Assembly (NCBI GenBank): GCA_001599715.1 | Contig: BCHU01000009.1 | Coordinates: 62,001 to 126,000 of the forward strand | Direction of reading: 5' to 3' | Source: Phaeotremella fagi | Taxonomy: Eukaryota > Basidiomycota > Tremellomycetes > Tremellales > Phaeotremellaceae | Length of the DNA stretch: 64,000 nucleotides | Part shown: positions 12,374 through 50,027 of the stretch, one piece after another | Layout of the letters: every line of letters starts with the position of its first letter | Position numbering within the stretch: the stretch's first letter is position 1 | Notes under the pieces: generated by a model | The model's database searches: none | Told to the model about the DNA's origin: nothing | The model's input: only the letters and a program-made list of their open reading frames with translations | Translations under genes and position numbers: made by a program

Positions 12374-12898
12374 CTATCTCCGAGATCTACGAGAATGTAG
12401 GCTAGGCATTGGTTTATTATCCAACTGGCGAACAATTGAACCAACGAGCTGTCTTCTCGCCTGATTGATTTCGTCTTGACTTGCACCTGGAGGCTGGACT
12501 ACACTAAGGCGATTCTTAGCTGTATGCTCTATTTTCCACATTTCGCCTTCCCATGTTTCTCCTTTCCGCATTTTGCGCGTACTCGTATAGAACTTTCTGA
12601 TGTCTAGACTACTGGAAATCCCCAACCTAACTCCACTTTCATCATAGAACCTCTTTTGAACGTATTCTGTTTTCCAATTCTCACTCTTATGTTCCCATCC
12701 CTCCCATCTGACTCTAGTAATAATGTCGGCCAGCCCCAGTTCTGACTTTACTGTGACAAATTCAGGCTCAGAAGCTCTATTCGAAGGACCACCAGGTGTT
12801 GTGCTACCGAAGAAGTCTGAGAGATCATCGTAGTCGTTTTTGATGGAGTATCGCCCATATACATCTCTTAAATCAACGTAATTATCTTCTGTACCCAT
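12374..12898 (-). CDS. Single-exon orphan protein, 174 residues
   Basis: Uninterrupted frame from ATG at 12898-12896. The N-terminal third is acidic and tyrosine-rich (NYVDLRDVYGRYSIKNDYDD). The middle is strand-like with many Trp/Glu (RWEGWEHKSENWKTEY, ETWEGEMWKIEH). The end is a helix plus basic tail (QARRQLVGSIVRQLD, then RRSRR). No known domain is recognised. The closing helix pattern resembles the end of the tandem family at 37-41 kb (for example VRKKAVSIINTHI), but this is only a by-eye resemblance. Confidence 0.5.
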   Translation of the reverse strand: MGTEDNYVDLRDVYGRYSIKNDYDDLSDFFGSTTPGGPSNRASEPEFVTVKSELGLADIITRVRWEGWEHKSENWKTEYVQKRFYDESGVRLGISSSLDIRKFYTSTRKMRKGETWEGEMWKIEHTAKNRLSVVQPPGASQDEINQARRQLVGSIVRQLDNKPMPSLHSRRSRR

Positions 12899-13365
12899 TT
12901 TGAGATAATCAATTTTAAAGTAGCAGCAACGGTGTTATGTTATTGGTTAAAAACCGAAGTGGAACTCGAAAGTCTTCATCACCTTTTAACTCAACTTGTA
13001 CAAGACCCGTACTGGACGAAGGAGGAGACATGCCTCCCAAGAAAGGATCAGATATACCGAAATGTCAAAGGTTATGAATCATATATTTCCAAATACTAAG
13101 GATATTGTCCCGATCATGGGAGTTTCTTGAGTGAAGCTCCACCTCCAACAAAGGACGTTCAGTAGAGCTCCACACTAGCATGTTCGTCGGGAAAACCAAC
13201 TTCGCTCCACAACTCACATACTGCTGAAAGGAACCTCGTCGTGAGAGAAAAGCCATGTAATTCGGAGATTGAAAATATCCACAGTACAAATGTCTTCTTT
13301 CAACATAACTTTGACTCCACCCAATTCTTTCCCCAAATCATCAAATATCTTCAAAGTAAAAGGCA
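12899..13365. other. Intergenic region between divergent small genes
   Basis: This 467-bp spacer holds the promoters for the minus-strand gene ending at 12898 and the plus-strand gene starting at 13366. A short frame beginning MPPKKGSDIPKC (13031) stops after 16 codons and is not called. Confidence 0.4.
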
Positions 13366-34432: not shown

Positions 34433-36652
34433 ATGCCTTCCTCACTACCGAAACCCAAATCAATATCATCCAAGGTAGCCTCCTCATCCACCTCCTCACC
34501 CTTGATCCAAATCCCAAAACTCGAAACCTCACTTCTATCCTCGCCGTACAACCCCAATCCTCTTCTCTCCTTGACCCAACTGTCAAGACATCAATCACCT
34601 GAAGTCGTTCATAAAGCCATCTGGGCTTTACACAGGGTATTCATCGTATACATCAACGAAGGGAAAGTCGGTGGATTAGCTGGTGGAGATGGGAACGGTG
34701 TTTCCAAGAGTGAAGCGGTCGTTACCGAAGATGGTGACGCTGAATCACATTCTAGACAAGTGAAAGGTTGGGTACGAGAACGATTCATCGAATATGTCGA
34801 TGTTCTTGGGGGACTGCTACGTGATTCAGAGGCAGGTTTACGAGTGAGTCACCTGATCATACTCCACTGACATCTAGTCTTCTGCACTACCATTGTTGTT
34901 TTCACTACTTGGACCGCTCTCCTTATCGTCCTCCCCCCCACCTAATCCAGCCATCATCCATACTCAATTTTTCCGTCTCATACTTCGTTTCCTTCTTTCA
35001 CCTACACCATCACTCCGAGGTTCCTCCACACCTTCAGCTTCTACTTCAGAAAACGCAATTAAATGGGTGACCAAAGCTGACAATCAAATTCCACTCGAGG
35101 AAGGGGTTTTACCACTGGACGTCATCAAAATTATTGTTGATGAATATTGGGCTAAACATGATGATCTTCGATGGGCATTCTTCAAGGAAGCTACGTAAGT
35201 AGTGTCAGCTGAAACAGACCACCCACTAATATCTCACTAGTCACTACCTCCAAAACTCCACTCTCGACCATCCCGAGAATCTGTTATCCCAATTAACACC
35301 ACTCACGAATCTACCCAAACTTCCAGAAGATCTCAATACATTTTTCCTCCCCTCGTTAGCCACCAAACCTAGTGGAACCTCATCAAACAAAAAAGTCAAA
35401 CTATCCAAACCTAAACCCAAAAAGAACGGTAAAATCGCCGGTGAAAACGACGCAACACCAGATTGGATGGCATATTACGATTCGGAAAGTGAAGAATCCG
35501 AAGCAGAAGATTTATCGATAGGTAAAAAAAGAGCTTTACCGGGATCAACCAATGGAATCCGAACATCCAGTTTATCGATTCATGCGTCGATACATTCAAT
35601 CCCATCTCATGTAGGTTTGTATACGACACTTTGGGAAACTTTATTATCGAATATCAGATTAGATGAGAATTGGACTAGAAAAGTTTTGGTTGGTTTACAT
35701 GGTGAAAAGGGTATTTTGGGTCATATGAAACCGGAAAGAAGAGTTAGAGTCGCAGATTGGTTAGGTGGTTTGGTTGATGGTGGAGGTGGATTGGCTATGT
35801 TGGCAATGAACGGGTTGTTCGTTTTAATGACTAAATATAATCTGTAAGTGGTGTCGTTCATTGGCAAACCTTACTAACCTTGAAATAGTGATTATCCAAA
35901 TTTCTACATCCGACTATATGGCTTACTAGATAAAAACGTTTTACATGTTAAATATCGAGCGAGATTTTTTAGATTACTAGATACATTCCTAAAATCAAGG
36001 TAAGATTTTCATCACCTCATTTCTATCCCTCTGACCCGAATAGTCTCCTACCATCGGCACTAATCGCCTCATTCATTAAAAGATTATCAAGACTTGCCCT
36101 AAAAGCTCCACCAGCAGGTATAATAATGTTAATCCCGTTCATCTACAATCTCTTCAAAAGACATCCAGGATGTATGGTGATGATCCAACGTCATGAATCT
36201 GAAGAGACGGGTGAGTCCATCTTGGCATCCTGAGAAACACCTAACGAAGTTATAGATCCATTCGATGAATCCGAGGAATCACCATTCGTCACCAAAGCCA
36301 TTAATTCATCTTGTTGGGAATTAGGTGCCCTGCAACATCACTATTTAGCGTCGGTCTCCACACTAGCTAAAATATTTACGGAGGTATTCACCAAACCTGA
36401 ATACAACCTAGAAGATTTTCTGGATCACGGATACGGTACTGTGAGTCGTCTTTTTCCACTGCTTTTCATAAAGTTACGCTTACACTGTGACAGCTTTTCG
36501 AAACTGAGATCAACAGGAAAATCAAGAACCCACCTGCGCTTTCACTTTCACTAGAGTTACCTGATTCTGCTGTTGGTGTTGTCTTCCCTGGTGAAGTGGA
36601 AGAAGAGGTCAGAGCTTCTGGAGACGTCGTTAGTCAATTATGGAAGTTTTAG
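34433..36652 (+). CDS. NOC4: Ribosome biogenesis protein NOC4
   Basis: Nucleolar protein of the CBF/Mak21 family that works with Nop14 in maturation and export of the 40S subunit. About seven exons; introns lie near 34842-34879, 35196-35240, 35845-35888, 36001-36042, 36210-36255 and 36441-36493. The product is about 600 residues. The C-terminal half carries the conserved Noc4 block in order: DYPNFYIRLYGLLDKNVLHV, RFFRLLDTFLKS, LPSALIASFIKRLSRLALKA, IPFIYNLFKRHPGC, DPF, AINSSCWELGALQHHYLASV and PEYNLEDFLDHGYGT. The middle has a Lys-rich disordered patch (KVKLSKPKPKKNGK) and an acidic Ser/Glu run. The last exon is less conserved. The stop lies 118 bp from the convergent stop of the first tandem-family gene. 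Confidence 0.9.
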
Positions 36653-36769: not shown

Positions 36770-37361
36770 TCAACGTAACGCTGAACCATCTCCACTCATA
36801 CCCAAGAACTTCTCGCGAGTCCGAAGATGAGCCTCAACAATCGTGTCTCTATTCTCTTTAACCACAGATCTAAACTTTTCAAACTCCATCTGTTCAACTG
36901 TCCCAACGATAACCGTATCAAGCAAAGACAACCAACGAGTTTGATCACAAAGTATCAAACTCGCCTCAGGAGCCTCAATAACCTTCTGAATTTCATTTTC
37001 GTGCCCGATCAAATTCGATCCATCGTGCACGAAATACATCCAAGCCTGTTCTCTGAGTACCGAATCGGAAAGGTCCAAAGATGCAGAAAGCTCGCATTTG
37101 TAATGACGTTTCTTGATATCGTTGGAATTAGGTGTATCGTTGGAGTCGTCGGTGTTCGATACGAATTGAAAAACGGTGAAGAGTTCTTGATATTCAATCT
37201 CTCTAAAACGTATTCATCTGTCAATCGAATCATCCTTCATTCGATGAACTGTACTTCAGAAAGACTACTCACCCTTTATCTGAGTTCGTTACCCAGAACT
37301 GGGATTGGAGACTTCCATTTTCAACTGGATGGGTGATGATTTCAGAAGGGACAAGTGGCAT
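36770..37361 (-). CDS. Tandem small-gene family, member 1
   Basis: Two exons: ATG at 37361-37359; short exon 1 ends at GG of a GGT/GGA codon (phase 2); a roughly 70-nt intron (GTGAGT ... GTTTTAG); exon 2 to the stop at 36772-36770. About 172 residues beginning MPLVPSE. The middle is strand-rich (IEYQELFTVFQFVSN, KKRHYKCELSASLDL) and the end is a helix RDTIVEAHLRTREKFL. It shares the start (MPL), intron position and phase, size and closing helix with the neighbours at 37893 and 38743. No known domain, signal peptide or membrane span. Confidence 0.6.
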
Positions 37362-37892
37362 TATTTTCGCAGTAAGTCTTTAATTTGTGAATCAATGAAC
37401 AGTGGTTGGAGAGGAAATACTTTGCTCTGAGGAAAGAGATAACATAGCACACGTTCAGTAATTGATGCCTTCCCATTAATACAAAAGATCCTTCAGAGTC
37501 ATACAAAAAGAAGCGAACGAGTCTTATTCATCAATAACCAGTCCATTCCAGCATGTACCTCAAAATACGAAAATCGGCCATCCTCGAGGTCCCAAATTTC
37601 TTTGGCTTGTGATTTCAATTACTTGAAGTAGTGTGAGTGGTCGAAAAGAGAATGTATTGATGACCTAACGGAGTTACGAATCCACGGTATAATGAGGTCT
37701 CTTCTTGCCTTCTGATGTGATAAAGGATGTCTGAAGAGGCCGAGAGGGACTTCCCATTGTCTTTGTGTAATTCAAACCCAGATTGATTTTGGAGTTTTCA
37801 GGCATTTTCTAAAAGACTGTACTGATAGTTGAGTCTAAGCGATTGACGCCGCATACGTTACATCTCTATATGAACACATGATGGCCTAACCT
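37362..37892. other. Intergenic spacer in tandem family
   Basis: This 531-bp gap holds the promoter for member 1 and the 3' UTR of member 2. No gene or repeat was recognised. Confidence 0.4.
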
Positions 37893-38425
37893 CTAAGACG
37901 AATCCAAAGATTCCGCCTCTACTGAATATACCTGACTCACAATCTTCTTCCCGTTCTCATCGTATTTCAAAATCTCTTTACGTTGCGAGAGATGAGCCCC
38001 GATGATAGAATCAACATTTCTTCCAACAAAAGCACTGAAAACAGGAGTATTTGCGAACCGAATACTATTGTTGATCAAAGCAGTCCAGCCACTATAAGGT
38101 ACCAGTTCCTCGCTGTTCCACTCAAAACGTCGAACTCCGTCCCAACCCAAAACCTTCTTTCCACGTACAATCGAAACTTTTTCGAAGATATTGACAGACG
38201 GAATATCACTGATTGAAGTGGATAGAACGAGTCTTTCTTTTTCATCACTCGTGTTAAACGTATAAGAACTTGTTTCTAAGGTTTGCGAAACAGTGGAGCT
38301 GGAATAAAGCGGTTACTTTAAAAGTTGGATTCCAAAATAATATCGACTTACCCTTCATCATTCGTTTTTGAATCATAATTGGTATGGATGAAACCGCTGT
38401 CGTTCTCAAGAATTATGAGCGGCAT
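37893..38425 (-). CDS. Tandem small-gene family, member 2
   Basis: ATG at 38425-38423. Exon 1 (about 25 codons) ends TNDEG with GG before the donor GTAAGTCG, so phase 2. Exon 2 opens with STVSQTLETS and runs to the stop at 37895-37893. About 160 residues. The closing region VDSIIGAHLSQRKEILKYDE, then NGKK, matches member 3 closely (VSIINTHISERGKLLKYDE, then TGKK). This clear pair anchors the family. Function unknown. Predicted soluble, strand-rich then helical. Confidence 0.6.
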
Positions 38426-38742
38426 AGGAGGAGACTTGGCTTTCTCGTTTTGCGAAATTGAATGAATGCGTTGGGAGAAGATACTGTACAATTATCATTG
38501 CCTATCATTCACATACATTGTAGTCTTCGCAGGTTCAAGTGTGAAACCACAAATGACGAATGTGCCCAGAAAGGACTGATCATGATAATTGTCATCATGA
38601 AGTGTGAACCAGTGGACAGTCTTCTACAGGTTGGGGTCTTTGGTAACATTAGTACAATAATGCATCTCTGTGAACTATCACGTTGAAGCCGCATACATAC
38701 AAAGAAGTGGAACACAAGAGACAAAGCCTATATACAGTAGCC
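38426..38742. other. Intergenic spacer in tandem family
   Basis: A 317-bp spacer between members 2 and 3. An imperfect GATCATGATAATTGTCATCATG inverted repeat (38578-38599) is the only structure noticed. Confidence 0.4.
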
Positions 38743-39331
38743 TCACTTCACCTCAGTAGGTGACTCCTCCATCTTCTTCCCTGTCTCATCGTACTTAAGG
38801 AGCTTTCCACGCTCAGAAATATGAGTGTTGATGATAGAAACAGCTTTCTTTCTGACAAGATCAGAAAATACTTGTCGATCGGGAATTTGACGTGATGTAG
38901 CTGAACCCAAGAGAATCCACCATCCCTCAAAATCCCCAAGTCGATCCCCGACCAAACTTTTGAAATACTGACGAGAGTCCCAATCTACCCTTTCCCTAGG
39001 CACCATTTTCCCATCCACCCTGCCCCTAACTACGAACCGCGCTGCTTCCTCGACATTGGCTCTATGGTCCTTGAAAATCGTAGTGGTGAGAACAAATTCC
39101 TCTCTCTCCTCATTGGACTCGAATGATCGAAAAGTCGATTGCAATTTTTGAGAGATGGTAGAGCTGGTAGATATGAAGTCAGACTTTTACTATTCAGAAA
39201 ATGAGTTGAACCAATTCGACCTACCCTGCATCATTTGTTTCTAAAGTATAATAGGTCTCAATGAAACAGACGTCTTCATCGTCACTTTCATCAAGTATAG
39301 TCAGGTTTGCTCTGGAAACCGAGATGGGCAT
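38743..39331 (-). CDS. Tandem small-gene family, member 3
   Basis: ATG at 39331-39329. Exon 1 ends TNDAG with GG before GTAGGTCG, phase 2. The intron ends at ATCTACCAG, and exon 2 opens STISQKLQSTF. Stop at 38745-38743, about 177 residues. The body has a longer insertion than member 2 (VVRGRVDGKMVPRERVDWD). The region GWWILLGSATSRQIPDRQV precedes the closing helix shared with member 2. Exon 1 boundary residues (TND.G) and the start of exon 2 (ST.SQ.L) are nearly identical in members 2 and 3. Function unknown. Confidence 0.6.
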
Positions 39332-39835
39332 GATAAGAGATTTTGGGCTTTTTTCTAAAACTGAAAAAAAAATTCCTTTACGGTAGGGAAGAAGAAGAGT
39401 TCTGTTTGTTTTACTTCCCATCATTACATTTCTATACTCCCGAATGTTTTCTGACTCCGAAATCAAAGATAGCGAGTATTAGGAGAAAGTCACAAAGGAT
39501 AGAATGTGGTCTTCGTCTTTTTGAGGTTGCATCATATTGATGGCGCCTCCTTCCAGGAAGTCTGACGCTGACATAAAACAGAATACATACCTCAATGGAA
39601 ATCCTTTTATTACCTACTTGGCCTCCTCTATCTTCCTCGACAAACATGTGTCAAGGATTCAAAAAGCATTTGTAAATCCAGGATATCAAAATGGTTTCCA
39701 AATTTAAACAGCCTTTTGCTAAGTGGCAAAACAGCTTTTGCCACACTGTTAGAAAGTTCCAGTTCTCCTCTGTTACCTTTCATGCATATGACTAGAGAAC
39801 TACTTGCACCAGCGAATGGAGATAAATACCTTACC
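39332..39835. other. Intergenic spacer in tandem family
   Basis: A 504-bp gap. It includes an inverted word GCAAAAGCTG / CAGCTTTTGC-like (AGTGGCAAAACAGCTTTTGCCACA, 39721-39744) with about 8-bp arms. No gene supported. Confidence 0.4.
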
Positions 39836-40368
39836 TCATTCCCTTCTTGTATCTCTCACCCCCTCGAAGCTCTCTGTTTTTCTACGCTCCTCAGCAATCT
39901 TGAAAAGCGTCTCGCAACCCTCCAAATGAGACTTGATGATCCCGTCCATACAATCTTTCGTACAAAAGACCGATTGAAAACTTTCATCAACCTCAAATTT
40001 CCACCGCGATGCCAGATCTCTTAGAGTAGATTTCCACACCTTTTCTGGTGAATGTTTCGAGTATCTCGTTAGAGTTACCGCTAGGATTTTTATACCGTCG
40101 TCGTTGACTTTAAAGGGTGCTTGACTTTCGTAGGGGTTGGGATTCCCAATTTTGCATATACGTGCTGTGACGACTACTTGTTTTTCTCTGCATTTCAGAC
40201 TGTTCAGTGTAAGTCTAAGCGAAGGGTGTTCGGGATTTTGAAAGAAACTGTCGACTCTGTATGTGTGTTCTTGAGCACTGCGGATCGGTCAGTGAAACCG
40301 AAGCACTTGCAGTACCTACAGGTTGATAGAATGAGTGGTGAGAGTGCAGACGTCTCCATATATCTCAT
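39836..40368 (-). CDS. Tandem small-gene family, member 4 (diverged)
   Basis: Start at 40368-40366, or at the next in-frame ATG 40359-40357. A short exon 1 is followed by an intron read as GTACTG ... CCGCAG, whose phase-2 junction gives an unbroken frame to the stop at 39838-39836. A GTAGGT donor 4 nt earlier would break the frame. About 165 residues. The body is strand-rich with several Cys (LNSLKCREKQVVVTARICKI, FCTKDCMDG). The closing helix DGIIKSHLEGCETLFK aligns with VDSIIGAHLSQRKEIL of member 2. Sequence is strongly diverged, but gene structure is the same. Confidence 0.5.
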
Positions 40369-40749
40369 CCGATGAAAATAGAGTGGTAGTTGTAGTTGTA
40401 GTTGTTGTTGTTGTAGTTGTTGTACCGACATCAGACATGACGATGAGTAACAACAGGCTAAGGTTTTGGTAAACAGGCTATAAGTTAGCAAAGATAAGTG
40501 GTTAATCGTGCAATGTTTTTGTACTCCGAGATTGACAACATCGAAGGCAACTTTCTTTCTAAGACCATCGGCATTTGATTTTATGTCCTACTGATCCCTA
40601 ATTCCGCAGAGAGAGTAGAATTCTTAAAGTTTCGGTCAAAATGTGAGCTGGATCATGTAAAAGATAACTAAAAATGGACAAGCAGAAGGAGTTACAAGAT
40701 AATCACATCCAAACTTCCATACTGATCAGTAAAAGCCCCACGCTCCTCA
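40369..40749. other. Intergenic spacer in tandem family
   Basis: A 381-bp gap between members 4 and 5, holding the microsatellite noted separately. No gene seen. Confidence 0.4.
40385..40424. repeat. GTTGTA/GTT microsatellite
   Basis: About 40 bp of GTAGTT/GTTGTT units directly upstream of member 4, probably in its promoter or 5' UTR. Confidence 0.8.
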
Positions 40750-41271
40750 TTAAGTAGACAAGAACCTCGAACAAAAACTCATCTGCACCAAAAACATCGT
40801 CTTCAAACTCTCCCTGACCTCAGTATAAATCCTCTGTTCAACCCCCTCTGTCCATTCCTCTTCGATATCACCAACGTTCTCTGGTAAATCTCTACCCTTC
40901 TGATCATCGAAATCTGATAACTTGTATTCCACCAAAACCTTTTCACCAAGTCCGGGATGTAGACAACTACAAACTCTCGTGGTTGACTGGGTGACTTGCA
41001 TTATTGCTGCCAAGTCTTGGATTTTGTCTTCGGGGTTTTGGATGTTGGTGAACGATAATCTTAGATAGGGGAGATGTTGATGTTGAAGGGTAGTGCTAAC
41101 ATCTTTCCACGTTTCTCCACTTATAGGATAAGCACTACAGTGTTTGCCGGTGAGTTGAAACACGAGTTTTGATGTGAGGTGCAGTACTTACATTGTGGAA
41201 TATTGGGTATAGAATTTGATTTTATCGCTATAACAAGTTTTGAAGATTTCGGATGGATCCTCAGACGCCAT
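40750..41271 (-). CDS. Tandem small-gene family, member 5 (diverged)
   Basis: ATG at 41271-41269. Exon 1 of 27 codons ends in AT before GTAAGTAC (phase 2). The intron ends CACTGTAG and the frame then runs to the stop at 40752-40750. About 154 residues. Body: YLRLSFTNIQNPEDKIQDLA, SCLHPGLGEKVLVEY, then an acidic turn and a closing helix VEQRIYTEVRESLKTMFLVQ. The link to members 1-4 rests on size, orientation, position and the same phase-2 intron about 27 codons in; residue identity is low. Confidence 0.5.
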
Positions 41272-42950: not shown

Positions 42951-45900
42951 TCACTTTGGAGGACTCAACCCCAACCCAGCCATAGGTTTCAACGGAGTCA
43001 TCGGAACAAACGGAGTAGCAGCTCCAGGTGTACCGGCGACTGAACGGTTATGTTTCATATGAGCTTGAATCAAATGACCAGCCGCCAAAGCCGACATGAG
43101 CGAGAGTTCACCAGCCATGACGGCAGCTGAGATGATCCTAGCCAACCTTTGAGCGTTGCTACCAGGTGATGTTGGATGGGCACCTGCGACACCCAACATT
43201 TCTAGCATCGCTCGTTGCGGAGCGAGAATGGTTCCACCTCCAACTGTTCCTACTTCTATCGATGGCATTGAACAGGTGATGAGTAAATCCTGGCCGTCGT
43301 TGATACTAATAGCTATTAGCAAAAATAGGGAGAAGAGAAAAACAACACTCACGGTTCCATCAACGTCATACAGTTTGAACTTTCAACGTTTTGGGCTGGA
43401 TCTTGACCGGTAGCCAAATAAATAGCAGTGAGGATGTTCGAAGCATGAGCGTTGAAACCACCAACAGCACCAGCCATAGCTGAACCAATCAAATTCTTCT
43501 TGATGTTGAGATTACATAAATCCTGAACCGTAGTTTTGAGTACCGATTTGACCACATGCCCAGGGACGACAGCTTCAGCAACGACGGATTTACCACGACC
43601 TTCGATCCAATTGATAGCAGCTGCTTTCTTGTCGATACAGTAATTACCGGATAACGCCAACAAGTTCATCTCGGGGTATCGTAATTCGAGGACTTTGAGA
43701 GCAGCTTCTACACCTTTGGAAATCATGTTCATTCCCATTGCGTCACCAGTTTGAGTTGCAAACCTGACGTATAGAGTACGACCTGCCATTGCACATTTTA
43801 ATGAAGACAATCTAGCGAATCTCGAAGTTGAATTGAAAGCTTCTCTGATGATGTTGAAACCTTCTTCTGAATCCAGGAAAATACGACATTGAGATGCCAT
43901 GATGATTGATGGGAAATCGATAGCTGGGCCACGAGTCATGGCGTCTTTAGTCAATACTGTCGTTACTCCACCACCAAGATTGAGTGCTTTACATCCACGT
44001 GAAGCTGATGCAACCAAAGTTCCTTCAGTGGTAGCCATAGGGATATGTAACAATTGACCATCGACGTTTAATGGTCCAGCGACACCAACCGGTAAAGGCA
44101 TGTAACCAATGACGTTTTCACAACAAGCACCAATGATAGCTTTGTAATCGTAATCAGCCATCGGTAAAGCTGAAGCCTCGAGGGTCTGAGTAAGTGAAGT
44201 TCTTGAAGTAACAGCCCGTCTAACTCTAACAGCTCGTTCGAGATTCTTCAAAACTTTCTCTAAAGCATAAGTAGCGATTTTACCTTTTTCAACCAAGAAA
44301 ATGACCTCTTCGTCAGACAGGTTATTGGCACCAACACCACCTGCAAAGATTTCCACACATTCGTCCAGAGATCTTCTGCCGAATGTCATTTGAAGTGAAG
44401 AGGGGGAAGAGGAAGTGGAGGAAGGGTTACTGGCAGCCATTGTTGGTTCGGCGATGATTGGGATTTTAGGTGTTCCAGGGATGACAATGTGACCGAGGGC
44501 AGGTTTTGTGTTGGGAGGATGACCGTTGGCGTGTCCGTTGGCATGTCCGTTACTGTTTGCGTGACCGTTTTCATTCGTTGGCGTTTGATCACCTTCAACG
44601 GGACGAAGCATGGTTGCTGGTAACGGTGTCTTGTCTCGACCCCTTGGTGTGATTGATCTAGCATCTCGTCGGAATTGTTCGAGTTGAGAACCGCCACTCC
44701 ATCTTCGTCTTTTGACTGGTTCCGTACCGTCGAACACGCTAACCAAAGCTTGAGCAGCTGCTGCGACAGGACCTTTACCACCGATTGAATTTGAAGCAAT
44801 TCCTTTGAGTAGATAACCGTTAAGCAATACACTGATTCCCAAAGCGACTACTATCCATTTACTCAAAACTGGATCACCAACAAGAGTAGACCATTCACTC
44901 ATGAAATGGTCAATCGAAGCCATACGCGATGAAGCGTAACCGTCTAGTGACATGACGATATGAGTTGGGGGAATGATTTGAACGACCATGTCAGTTTCAA
45001 CAGGTTGGTTGTTGTATATCGATTCCAAAATGGGTGAAAGTGATGGGGATCTTGGATCGATTCTCGGTGGACTGGGTAAAGAATGAGTTGAATGACGTTT
45101 CAGAGCGGTTTGCTCTGTAAGTGTGGTACAGAGGTTGAGAATGTGGAGAGTGAGGAATGAGACGATGAGGAATAGTTTTAATCGAACGACTGGATTTTCA
45201 GGTTGATCGACTTTTGATAGGTTTGGGGTTTGTTCGGCGGATCCATTGAGAGAGGTTGATGAGGAACTTCGATGAATTGATTTAGCCCTTCGGTTACCTC
45301 TGATCAACTTGATTCGATGGACTTCAACCATGACAGCGAGGATGGCGACGTAGAATGAAAAGAGGAAGATGCAATCAGCTGCCATGATTAGTGCAGCTAG
45401 ATAACAGAATTCCCGTAAACCTCCAATACCACTTGCAGCTCCAACACTCAGAACAGCGATCTCGACGATGTAATCCCTAACAATGCTGACACCAACTTTT
45501 CCAACAGCTTCAACAACGATTTGTTTAGCAGCAACCGGTGCTGCCCATCTAACACCTTTCCCTTCAGCCAATCTCTGTAACCTCTCCAAAGGAGCTAAAC
45601 CCTTGTGTAAAGCACCCAAATCTAATCCTAACCCAACAGCGTCCGAATCTAATTCTCTGGTTGGTGACATTTCAGGTGAAGCTGCTATAGGGGCGATTTC
45701 TGGATTTTGGAAAACAGCACGGGCGAGTTGGAAAGGTTTATCGAAACCGACTGTGATGACCAAAAAGGGGAGAGCTTCTGATAAACAGACAGGATCGACG
45801 GGTACGTTCAATAAGTATGCAGCGAGAAGAGCGGCGAGGAAAGCGAAAATAGATGAAATCAAGGTGGCGAAAGCTAGAACAATAGATGGTTAACAAAAGA

Positions 45901-47021: not shown

Positions 47022-48359
47022 TGTGATATTAGATTTATAGCCCGAGCGATGAATCGATTTAGAAGGGGAATAAAATTATAAAAATTCAAGGTATGGTTGG
47101 TAATAAACGTCGATCTATCCGTCTAACGCTCTATCCTCTATCACTTCTGGTATCTGATCTTGTGATCCTGTGTTGAACAAGAGCACTTGACTGAGACCTT
47201 TGAGAAGGAGTTGAGGTTTCAAGTTGAATAAGAATTTGATGAACGAAAAAAGTCTATTGTTCGATGGATATCAGTAGTCGCGTCGCCCTGTGGGCTAGGA
47301 GGGGAGAGAGTTGTTCTTCCTTGCCGTCTTTGATTGTATGTGTACCTCTGTTTGGGTATGTGAGGTGGTGTTACTACACTATAATATGTATATGATAGAT
47401 GGAATAAAGGTATATGTATAAAGTAGACACCTGGTGCTGTCAATAAATCCTGCACTAACAACATTCCACTCCTCCCCCAAAAAGGGATCGTGCGATGCCC
47501 TGTTAAACCCTGAAAATAGCAAAGTGGCACCACCAACAACAACAACAACGCAACAACAAATCATACTATTAGTAAATCTCAAATGCATCCACCTGGGTCA
47601 GCAGCAAAGCACATCACAGTGGACGCTACGAATCCTCCCCTCCAAACACATTCTCCAAACCACCGTACCATACTCCCAACTCATCTCCAAATACTCCCCC
47701 AATTCCTGATCCCAACCCTCGACGCGTCTCGCCACCCAATCTCATTTTCGTCTCCAGTCAGCAGACGCAGCCCGTCAATCGTACCATCTTCAATTAGTCT
47801 TCTTTCGTGCCATCTCTTTATGCATAGCAATTTTCATCTTATTCCAAATTTAATCTGATTACGCAAACGAATTATCATACAATATGAAATGGACTGTCAT
47901 TTAGCATCCGTGTTCATCAGATTTATGCAACTTAAACTCTATCGGAACTACTAAATGATCGGCTTGTCCGAATAGAGAACTGTAATTCTTGAATTGAGCA
48001 TTCTTGAATTGAGCATTCTTCAAATGAGTGATCCAAAGAAGTCAAGCAGCTAATGACGTTGTCTGCAAACATCAAAGGAAAGAAGTTTCTGGTGTTGACT
48101 TGAAAGGGAAGTCTCGGGGAAACAATCAGGAGATTGAGAAGTCCTTTCTATTCGTTGGAAGATGACATACGAGCATGACGATAATACCTCTTTTGTTGCA
48201 GTGGAGCTCTAGAAGAAGACTTGGTGGTTTCGTGGAAGCCCTCCCCCAGAAATAAAGGTATGAAGGATTCATCCACCCGACTCAACACCTCAAGTTTTAA
48301 TCAATTACATCCACTCAAACCAAATACCAAATACCAAATAAACTCCACGTCTCAAATCA
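47022..48359. promoter_or_regulatory. HMG1 upstream region, 1.3 kb without a gene
   Basis: Long divergent spacer with no frame that looks coding. It holds CAA-rich runs (47520-47560), several ACACC/GGTGG-type words and a 15-bp tandem repeat (see 47985). HMG-CoA reductase promoters in related fungi answer to the sterol regulator Sre1, but I could not find a convincing site by eye. Confidence 0.45.
47985..48019. repeat. 15-bp tandem repeat, about 2.3 copies
   Basis: ATTCTTGAATTGAGC occurs at 47985 and again at 48000, followed by a partial third copy (ATTCTT). Confidence 0.85.
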
Positions 48360-48935
48360 ATGACCTTCTTTTCACAAGTTCCCAAAGACACATCAATTTT
48401 GAGATTCAGGTTATTGAATAAATTAGAATCAGGAGAACTTCTTGTTTCGATAACGTCTTACCAGATACTGGATACGAAAAGCGAACCGTACTTAGGTGAA
48501 TATCCACGCTGTTATATCAACCCCAAAGAGAAGACAATAAGAAAAGAAACGACAGGTTTCATGTGCGAAACCAGGTGGTCCTATGTTGGTGAACTCTCTA
48601 TCACGATTGTTGATGATATCAGTGCAGAAGATCGTACCAAATATGAGACGGAGATTGTAAAACTCAATACTGCTGTCAAAACGCTACATACAGAGCTGAA
48701 GAATTCTTCTCAAGGTCTCGACGAACAATACCCCATATCTGAAGGAAGACCAAGTATGATTATGATGAATCGTTATAAGAAACTGAATGAAGCCACTCTC
48801 AAACTTTATAAAGATTTTCGTGAGAAGTATCCAGAAGATCAATACAGGATTTATAAGACTGGAGAGATCAATGGTGTTTTCACTAGAACCTCTCGTTCTT
48901 CTCATCCTGAATCTCATACCTGTAGTTTTCAATAG
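48360..48935 (+). CDS. Tandem duplicate orphan, copy A
   Basis: Single exon, 191 residues, from ATG at 48360 in the context TCTCAAATCAATG, matched by copy B. The N-terminal half is strand-rich (TSILRFRLLNKLESGELLVS, GEYPRCYINPKEKTIR, WSYVGELSITIVDD). The second half is helical and charged (SAEDRTKYETEIVKLNTAV, NRYKKLNEATLKLYKDF). The end is TRTSRSSHPESHTCSFQ. Aligned with copy B: Y(P/R)RCYINP/YYINP, IRK/IRN, WSY.GE(L/I)S.T.VD, S.E.R..YE, (I/M)GEI..V.TRTS. No known family. Beta domain followed by helices, as in the 37-41 kb family. Confidence 0.65.
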   Translation: MTFFSQVPKDTSILRFRLLNKLESGELLVSITSYQILDTKSEPYLGEYPRCYINPKEKTIRKETTGFMCETRWSYVGELSITIVDDISAEDRTKYETEIVKLNTAVKTLHTELKNSSQGLDEQYPISEGRPSMIMMNRYKKLNEATLKLYKDFREKYPEDQYRIYKTGEINGVFTRTSRSSHPESHTCSFQ

Positions 48936-49463
48936 AAAGGTGGATGATAAAGCGGTGTTTGAATTTTCGAAAGGAGGTTGAAAGGAGATACAGTATTGTG
49001 AATGTATGATTTGAATGCTTTCTCATTCTTGATCACAGCAGGTTCGATGCAGAATATTGTAACGCAGTATCATTCTCACCGTTTGATTCTTATCAACCAA
49101 ATGTTCTTGACCACGAGGTAACCAGGGAGGCAACTATTTACTCGTTCATCAAGCAGATTTTCCATCACTCAGAACCAGCTCAGTATATGTACAGAATCAA
49201 ACCAAACTCCGTCATCTTAAAAATGAAGAACCATTCCTCTCCCAACGCACTGAAACAATTATTAGATATGACTCGTCTAAGAACTGATCACGAACGCGCT
49301 CCCTCTTCCATTCACCTGTGGAGCTCTGGAAGAAGACTCGGTCGTCTCGTGGAAGCTCTCCCTCCTAAAATAAAGGTATGAAGGATTCATTCACCCAACC
49401 CCCCAGTTTTTAACAAATTACATCCACTCTTATCAAATACAAATAAATCCACCTCTCAAAACA
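48936..49463. other. Duplicated spacer and promoter of copy B
   Basis: A 528-bp gap. Its right part (49315-49463) is the copy of the copy-A promoter. The middle (49060-49310) is unique sequence between the two units. No gene. Confidence 0.5.
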
Positions 49464-50027
49464 ATGAACTCGTCTTCAGAAATTCCCCAAGAAACGTCAA
49501 CTTTCACGTTCAAAGTCATACAAGAGTATGGTCCAGCATCGCTTTATGTTTCGATAATCGACTACGAGAGAAAAGATACGAGAAGCGATTCTCACTTCGG
49601 TAAATATCCACGCTACTACATCAACCCAATACAGAAGACAATAAGAAATGCAGATATCGACGAAGACACATGGTCCTACGATGGTGAAATCTCTTTCACA
49701 GTCGTCGATAAACTCAGTCCAGAAGAACGTTCAGAATATGAGAAGGCTTTGAAAACTTATGTGGAGACTCGCAATATGCTCGCTGCACCAGGGATCAACT
49801 ATTTTCGCAGTCTCGATAATGCATCCTTCGATACTGAAGAAGCACGAAACAAGTTGAGAAGATTCAATGATGATTGGGACGAAGCCAACGCCAAACTTCG
49901 TAAAGATCTTTTTGAGAGATGTCCAAGTGATCGTTACGAGCTTGATATGATTGGGGAGATCGAATCAGTTATCACTAGAACCTCTCCTTCTCGTTATCAT
50001 GAACGTCATAGCTGTACTTGTTCATAG
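49464..50027 (+). CDS. Tandem duplicate orphan, copy B
   Basis: Single exon, 187 residues. Strand-rich N-terminus (TFTFKVIQEYGPASLYVSII, GKYPRYYINPIQKTIR, WSYDGEISFTVVDKLSPEER) then a charged helical part (EARNKLRRFNDDWDEANAKL, LRKDLFERCPSDRYEL) and an end rich in Ser/Cys/His (TRTSPSRYHERHSCTCS). It aligns with copy A along its length at roughly 40 percent identity by eye, whereas promoter and 3' flank are more alike, suggesting relaxed or diversifying selection on the protein. Confidence 0.65.
   Translation: MNSSSEIPQETSTFTFKVIQEYGPASLYVSIIDYERKDTRSDSHFGKYPRYYINPIQKTIRNADIDEDTWSYDGEISFTVVDKLSPEERSEYEKALKTYVETRNMLAAPGINYFRSLDNASFDTEEARNKLRRFNDDWDEANAKLRKDLFERCPSDRYELDMIGEIESVITRTSPSRYHERHSCTCS

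Follow-up and report, generated by a model that had tools for sequence, protein, structure and literature searches.

We found that the minus strand of a 64,000-nucleotide stretch of the Phaeotremella fagi genome (hereafter, the window) carries five co-oriented small genes lying head to tail between positions 36770 and 41271, three of which are related in sequence and are probably joined by the fourth. Comparison of the sequences supports local duplication of a two-exon gene as the origin of the first three genes, g1 to g3, and makes the same origin probable for g4. The array most likely represents a tandem family of soluble proteins that is lineage-restricted and of an ordinary kind.

The genes, read from the sequence and numbered from low to high coordinate, comprise 154–186 codons. 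Each fits a two-exon model whose frame runs uninterrupted between the ATG and the stop codon and which contains a single GT..AG intron, in phase 2 and predicted from the sequence. The g1 gene (36770..37361, minus strand, as for all five) encodes 173 aa and consists of exon 1 at 37361-37273, an intron of 70 nt at 37272-37203 and exon 2 at 37202-36770. In g2 (37893..38425; 159 aa), exon 1 at 38425-38352 is separated by a 53-nt intron (38351-38299) from exon 2 at 38298-37893, and in g3 (38743..39331; 175 aa) a 61-nt intron (39224-39164) lies between exon 1 at 39331-39225 and exon 2 at 39163-38743. The g4 gene (39836..40438; 186 aa) is composed of exon 1 at 40438-40320, a 42-nt intron at 40319-40278 and exon 2 at 40277-39836, while g5 (40750..41271; 154 aa) possesses exon 1 at 41271-41192, a 57-nt intron at 41191-41135 and exon 2 at 41134-40750. 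The introns, all of 42–70 nt, are positioned after 24–39 full codons, and their donors (GTGAGT, GTAAGT, GTAGGT, GTAGGT and GTAAGT, from g1 to g5) all fit GTRNGT. According to the model coordinates, the intergenic gaps along the array measure 531, 317, 504 and 311 bp.

These coordinates and open minus-strand models agree with the preliminary description of the locus as five co-oriented, head-to-tail two-exon genes, and its assignment of phase 2 to all five introns is likewise borne out. As for the junctions, the phase stands everywhere, but the AG|T junction formerly given for g4 would require another start and a 38-nt intron (still in phase 2); a first exon at 40438-40320 with the junction CT|T and the donor GTAGGT, which is also the donor of g3, is likelier from the sequence. 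With this preferred model, the end of g4 exon 1 (...YGDVCTLTTH) looks by eye like that of g3 (...DEDVCFIETYY). The same exon includes a run of 14 threonines, most of which is encoded by a short repeat with a period of 6 or 15 (40382-40424). Judged by codon usage, with five long ORFs from the window as the reference, the coding frame of exon 2 is the top-scoring one among the six frames in all five genes, with small margins and a score below zero for g4. A scan of the genome for a donor/branch-site pattern was uninformative (3 matches vs. 14 for the reversed control). The GC content of the array (0.40–0.43 in 1-kb steps) is similar to that of its surroundings and gives no sign of foreign origin.

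On its low-coordinate side, the array is neighbored by a NOC4/UTP19-like gene of the CBF/Mak21 family (34878..36652, plus strand; the outer limits are ORF limits), which is convergent with g1. Its ORF 35230-35847 has 60 protein matches (best identity 65%), of which those named by their source are U3 snoRNA-associated protein 19, ORF 36234-36554 matches Pfam CBF (E 2.2e-7), and ORF 34878-35198 looks by eye like the start of P0004. On the other side, an apparent plus-strand gene begins near 41.7 kb, two of its ORFs being without a Pfam match, and beyond it lies an HMG-CoA reductase ORF (43349-45889, minus strand). The window also holds a Brr2-type helicase ORF and, on the minus strand, an orphan ORF of 186 codons (12374-12934), for which Pfam gave nothing at E ≤ 0.1 and contig C20 gave a faint match (E 0.008) that contains two internal stops.

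Further along the window, we observed a second orphan pair on the plus strand (48342-48935 and 49374-50027), whose members are 41% identical. Like the genes of the array, these are adjacent, co-oriented small ORFs with no Pfam domain above cut-off; in contrast to them, they have another sequence, lie on the other strand and show a faint third match elsewhere (contig C1, E 0.0013). The match within the first copy of the pair starts upstream of the ORF and crosses one TAA. Together with the array, the pair at 48.3–50.0 kb would make two small tandem orphan families in the window.

Within the array, g2 and g3 are certain to be paralogues on the evidence of their sequences. The clear match already described for them was recovered at 34.7% identity over 150 columns, with an E-value of 1e-24 in a search among the five proteins only. 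In the 3′ flanks of the two genes, no more than 120 bases from the respective stops (37893 and 38743), we observed by eye a near-identical word, ATGCGGC[G/T]TCAA, which is perhaps a remnant of their duplication.

The g1 protein belongs with this pair. Its global alignment scores with g2 and with g3 were reached by none of 500 shuffles and, in both directions, by none of 1,000 ORF pieces, the latter being random, overlapping pieces of 25 stop-to-stop ORFs (180 codons or more) from other parts of the window, some of which are perhaps not genes. The local score was significant for g1-g2 (1 of 500 shuffles) and not for g1-g3 (P 0.12). Profiles were searched against 4,699 six-frame ORFs of at least 30 codons from 244 kb, where the g2+g3 profile retrieved g1 as the top non-training ORF at E 0.039, with the runner-up at 0.19. 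In leave-one-out searches, ranked after removal of all training ORFs and of the array's five exon-1 ORFs, g1, g2 and g3 each ranked first among the non-training ORFs with both training sets (with and without g5), the E-values of g1 being 0.0095 and 0.064. Searches with single sequences were weaker than those with profiles, g1 reaching g2 at E 1.2. When g1-g3 were aligned at full length, blind to introns, the glycine codons split by the introns (36 in g3, 25 in g2 and 30 in g1) fell in one column. The membership of g1 is well supported because it ranks first in both leave-one-out searches and its intron occupies the same alignment column.

The same approaches point to g4 as a probable family member. 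For the g1-g3 profile, it is the top non-training ORF among the 4,699 (E 0.17; runner-up 1.5), and its global score with g3 was reached by 3 of 500 shuffles and, whichever direction was taken, by none of 1,000 ORF pieces. Global alignment of g4 with g1 (score attained by 4.8% of shuffles and by 2.5% and 3.2% of ORF pieces) and with g2 (5.2% of shuffles; 7.6% and 2.7% of ORF pieces) was marginal, and the g2+g3 profile placed it tenth among all rows (E 2.6). None of the local alignments of g4 was significant (g3-g4, P 0.09), and the best non-self match of g4 as a single sequence was a non-family ORF (E 0.48). The intron of g4 lies approximately three residues off the position shared by g1-g3 in the alignment, an offset for which a small indel would account.

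It seems unlikely that the family is limited to g1-g3, with g4 and g5 being unrelated orphans whose gene plan is alike by chance. Such a limit would fit the weak E-values of both genes, the marginal scores of g4 with g1 and g2, and the finding that no promoter word is common to the array (none in the 300 bases upstream of all five genes, with four word settings). Yet, the g3-g4 global score that no ORF piece attains, the top rank of g4 for the g1-g3 profile and the same intron phase five times running argue against it.

As for g5, the profile of g1-g4 ranked it 656th among the non-training ORFs (E 270). Of the single five-gene family proposed initially, g1-g3 are retained and g4 is probable, whereas g5 is not recovered as a member. 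A search with the g5 sequence gave a non-family ORF as the best non-self match (E 0.24). We regard it as an even question whether all five genes are nevertheless one family, in which g5, and partly g4, diverged past sequence detection. The common orientation and adjacency of the five genes and their single phase-2 intron after a short exon 1 speak for it, as does a C-terminal layout that looks alike by eye in a five-row alignment, where the sole invariant column is a tryptophan. Of the shuffles, 2.8% attained the g4-g5 global score, compared with 2.4% and 0.8% of the ORF pieces, but the best P-value of g5 is marginal given four comparisons. Moreover, besides the rank of g5 in the profile search, its inclusion in the training set pushes g4 from the first to the third rank (E 1.6), and the g4+g5 profile retrieves g2 only at E 3.1, after two unrelated ORFs. 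When exon 2 of g5 was modelled from its sequence alone, the elements came out in a different order than in the model of g3 (see below), but a pLDDT of 41.7 makes the g5 model unusable for comparison. The g5 gene may be a copy of greater age and divergence, or it may be unrelated to the others and merely lie next to them with a similar gene plan.

Selection was assessed on g2 and g3, all other gene pairs being saturated in the codon comparison. Over 152 codons, we obtained dN 0.59, dS 1.40 and dN/dS 0.42 by NG86, and dN 0.65, dS 1.18 and dN/dS 0.55 by YN00. Selection on this pair looks purifying rather than diversifying, and relaxed selection is possible; the diversifying selection suggested earlier is not supported, dN lying below dS in both counting methods. 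A stop would arise from around 4.4% of all single changes to g2; at the synonymous distance between g2 and g3, an unconstrained frame should therefore carry many stops, and none was found. A maximum-likelihood codon model gave an unreliable estimate (omega 0.25, 2dL 15.96): among 12 unrelated control pieces, two had a larger 2dL than g2/g3 and six had negative values from unconverged fits, and because of these controls the ML estimates were dropped. Rapid change under diversifying selection, as in conflict or effector genes, would agree with neighbours that are at most 35% identical and with protein searches that returned no relatives. We consider it highly improbable in view of the dN and dS values, of the negative mean hydropathy of all five proteins and of their N-termini, in which no hydrophobic signal was seen by eye.

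None of the five proteins reaches a curated Pfam cut-off, in line with the earlier statement that no domain could be recognised in them, and the whole window is devoid of Rfam matches at gathering scores. In the protein database, g3 alone yielded 59 candidates, none at E ≤ 1, and exon 2 of all five genes yielded 635, without a single one at E ≤ 10. The NOC4/UTP19-like ORF, with its 60 matches, served as the control; since its best identity is only 65%, the database is too distant for the absence of fast-evolving genes to say much about sister species. When the P. fagi genome itself (22.6 Mb, 24 contigs) was searched with the five proteins one at a time, the array alone was found at E ≤ 10, among the first-look candidates that were scored (1–3 per query). 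The sequence profile of g1-g3 exon 2 gave a single PDB match, a TehB homologue (E 0.091), which we judged to be due to chance. Such an array is absent from the titles and abstract openings that we consulted, although a prior publication may exist.

Structure models cover exon 2 of g3 and g5 only, without exon 1. For g3 exon 2, with the g2 and g1 rows, the best AF2 model predicts, with low confidence, a fold of four strands followed by two helices (pLDDT 63.1, pTM 0.53; 37–51 for the remaining four models), and fold searches with this low-confidence model returned weak and mixed matches. An intracellular location of the five proteins would follow from the lack of a hydrophobic N-terminus. An amphipathic contact face on the last helix was not demonstrated, as the hydrophobic moment of this helix was not above that of shuffles in g1, g2, g3 and g5 (P 0.36–0.66) and was borderline in g4 (P 0.06). 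The profiles recognise the last-helix region between members, and our best guess is that this region would serve as a contact surface for a partner or for self-assembly.

Taken together, we think it rather probable that an ancestral two-exon gene was copied locally to give g1-g3 and probably g4, and that the copies, with soluble products, were kept under purifying selection. The ancestor would have been one two-exon gene, flanked by the NOC4/UTP19-like gene and, on the other side, by the apparent plus-strand gene that begins near 41.7 kb, and would have been duplicated in place several times, presumably by unequal crossing-over. Purifying selection would have retained its descendants as working genes despite the extensive divergence of their sequences, and their products may be soluble, intracellular proteins in which a beta-meander precedes two helices.

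Such an array resembles the general kind of lineage-restricted tandem families of fungi in its head-to-tail copies, open frames and absence of both a domain and database relatives; its only distinctive trait compared with them is the shared single phase-2 intron. It is doubtful that all five genes share a new fold and form a single family, restricted to P. fagi and close relatives, whose gene structure has survived longer than any recognisable likeness of its proteins. If true, the locus would hold a series running from 35% identity to none, with g5 as the extreme. The array is not unusual in kind and enlarges the set of lineage-restricted gene families in fungi only modestly. The g2/g3 pair, g1, g4 and perhaps g5 would form a graded series along which homology detection fails stepwise while exon structure persists, and the array may thus serve as a within-genome test of the origin of orphan genes, by divergence or by new origin.
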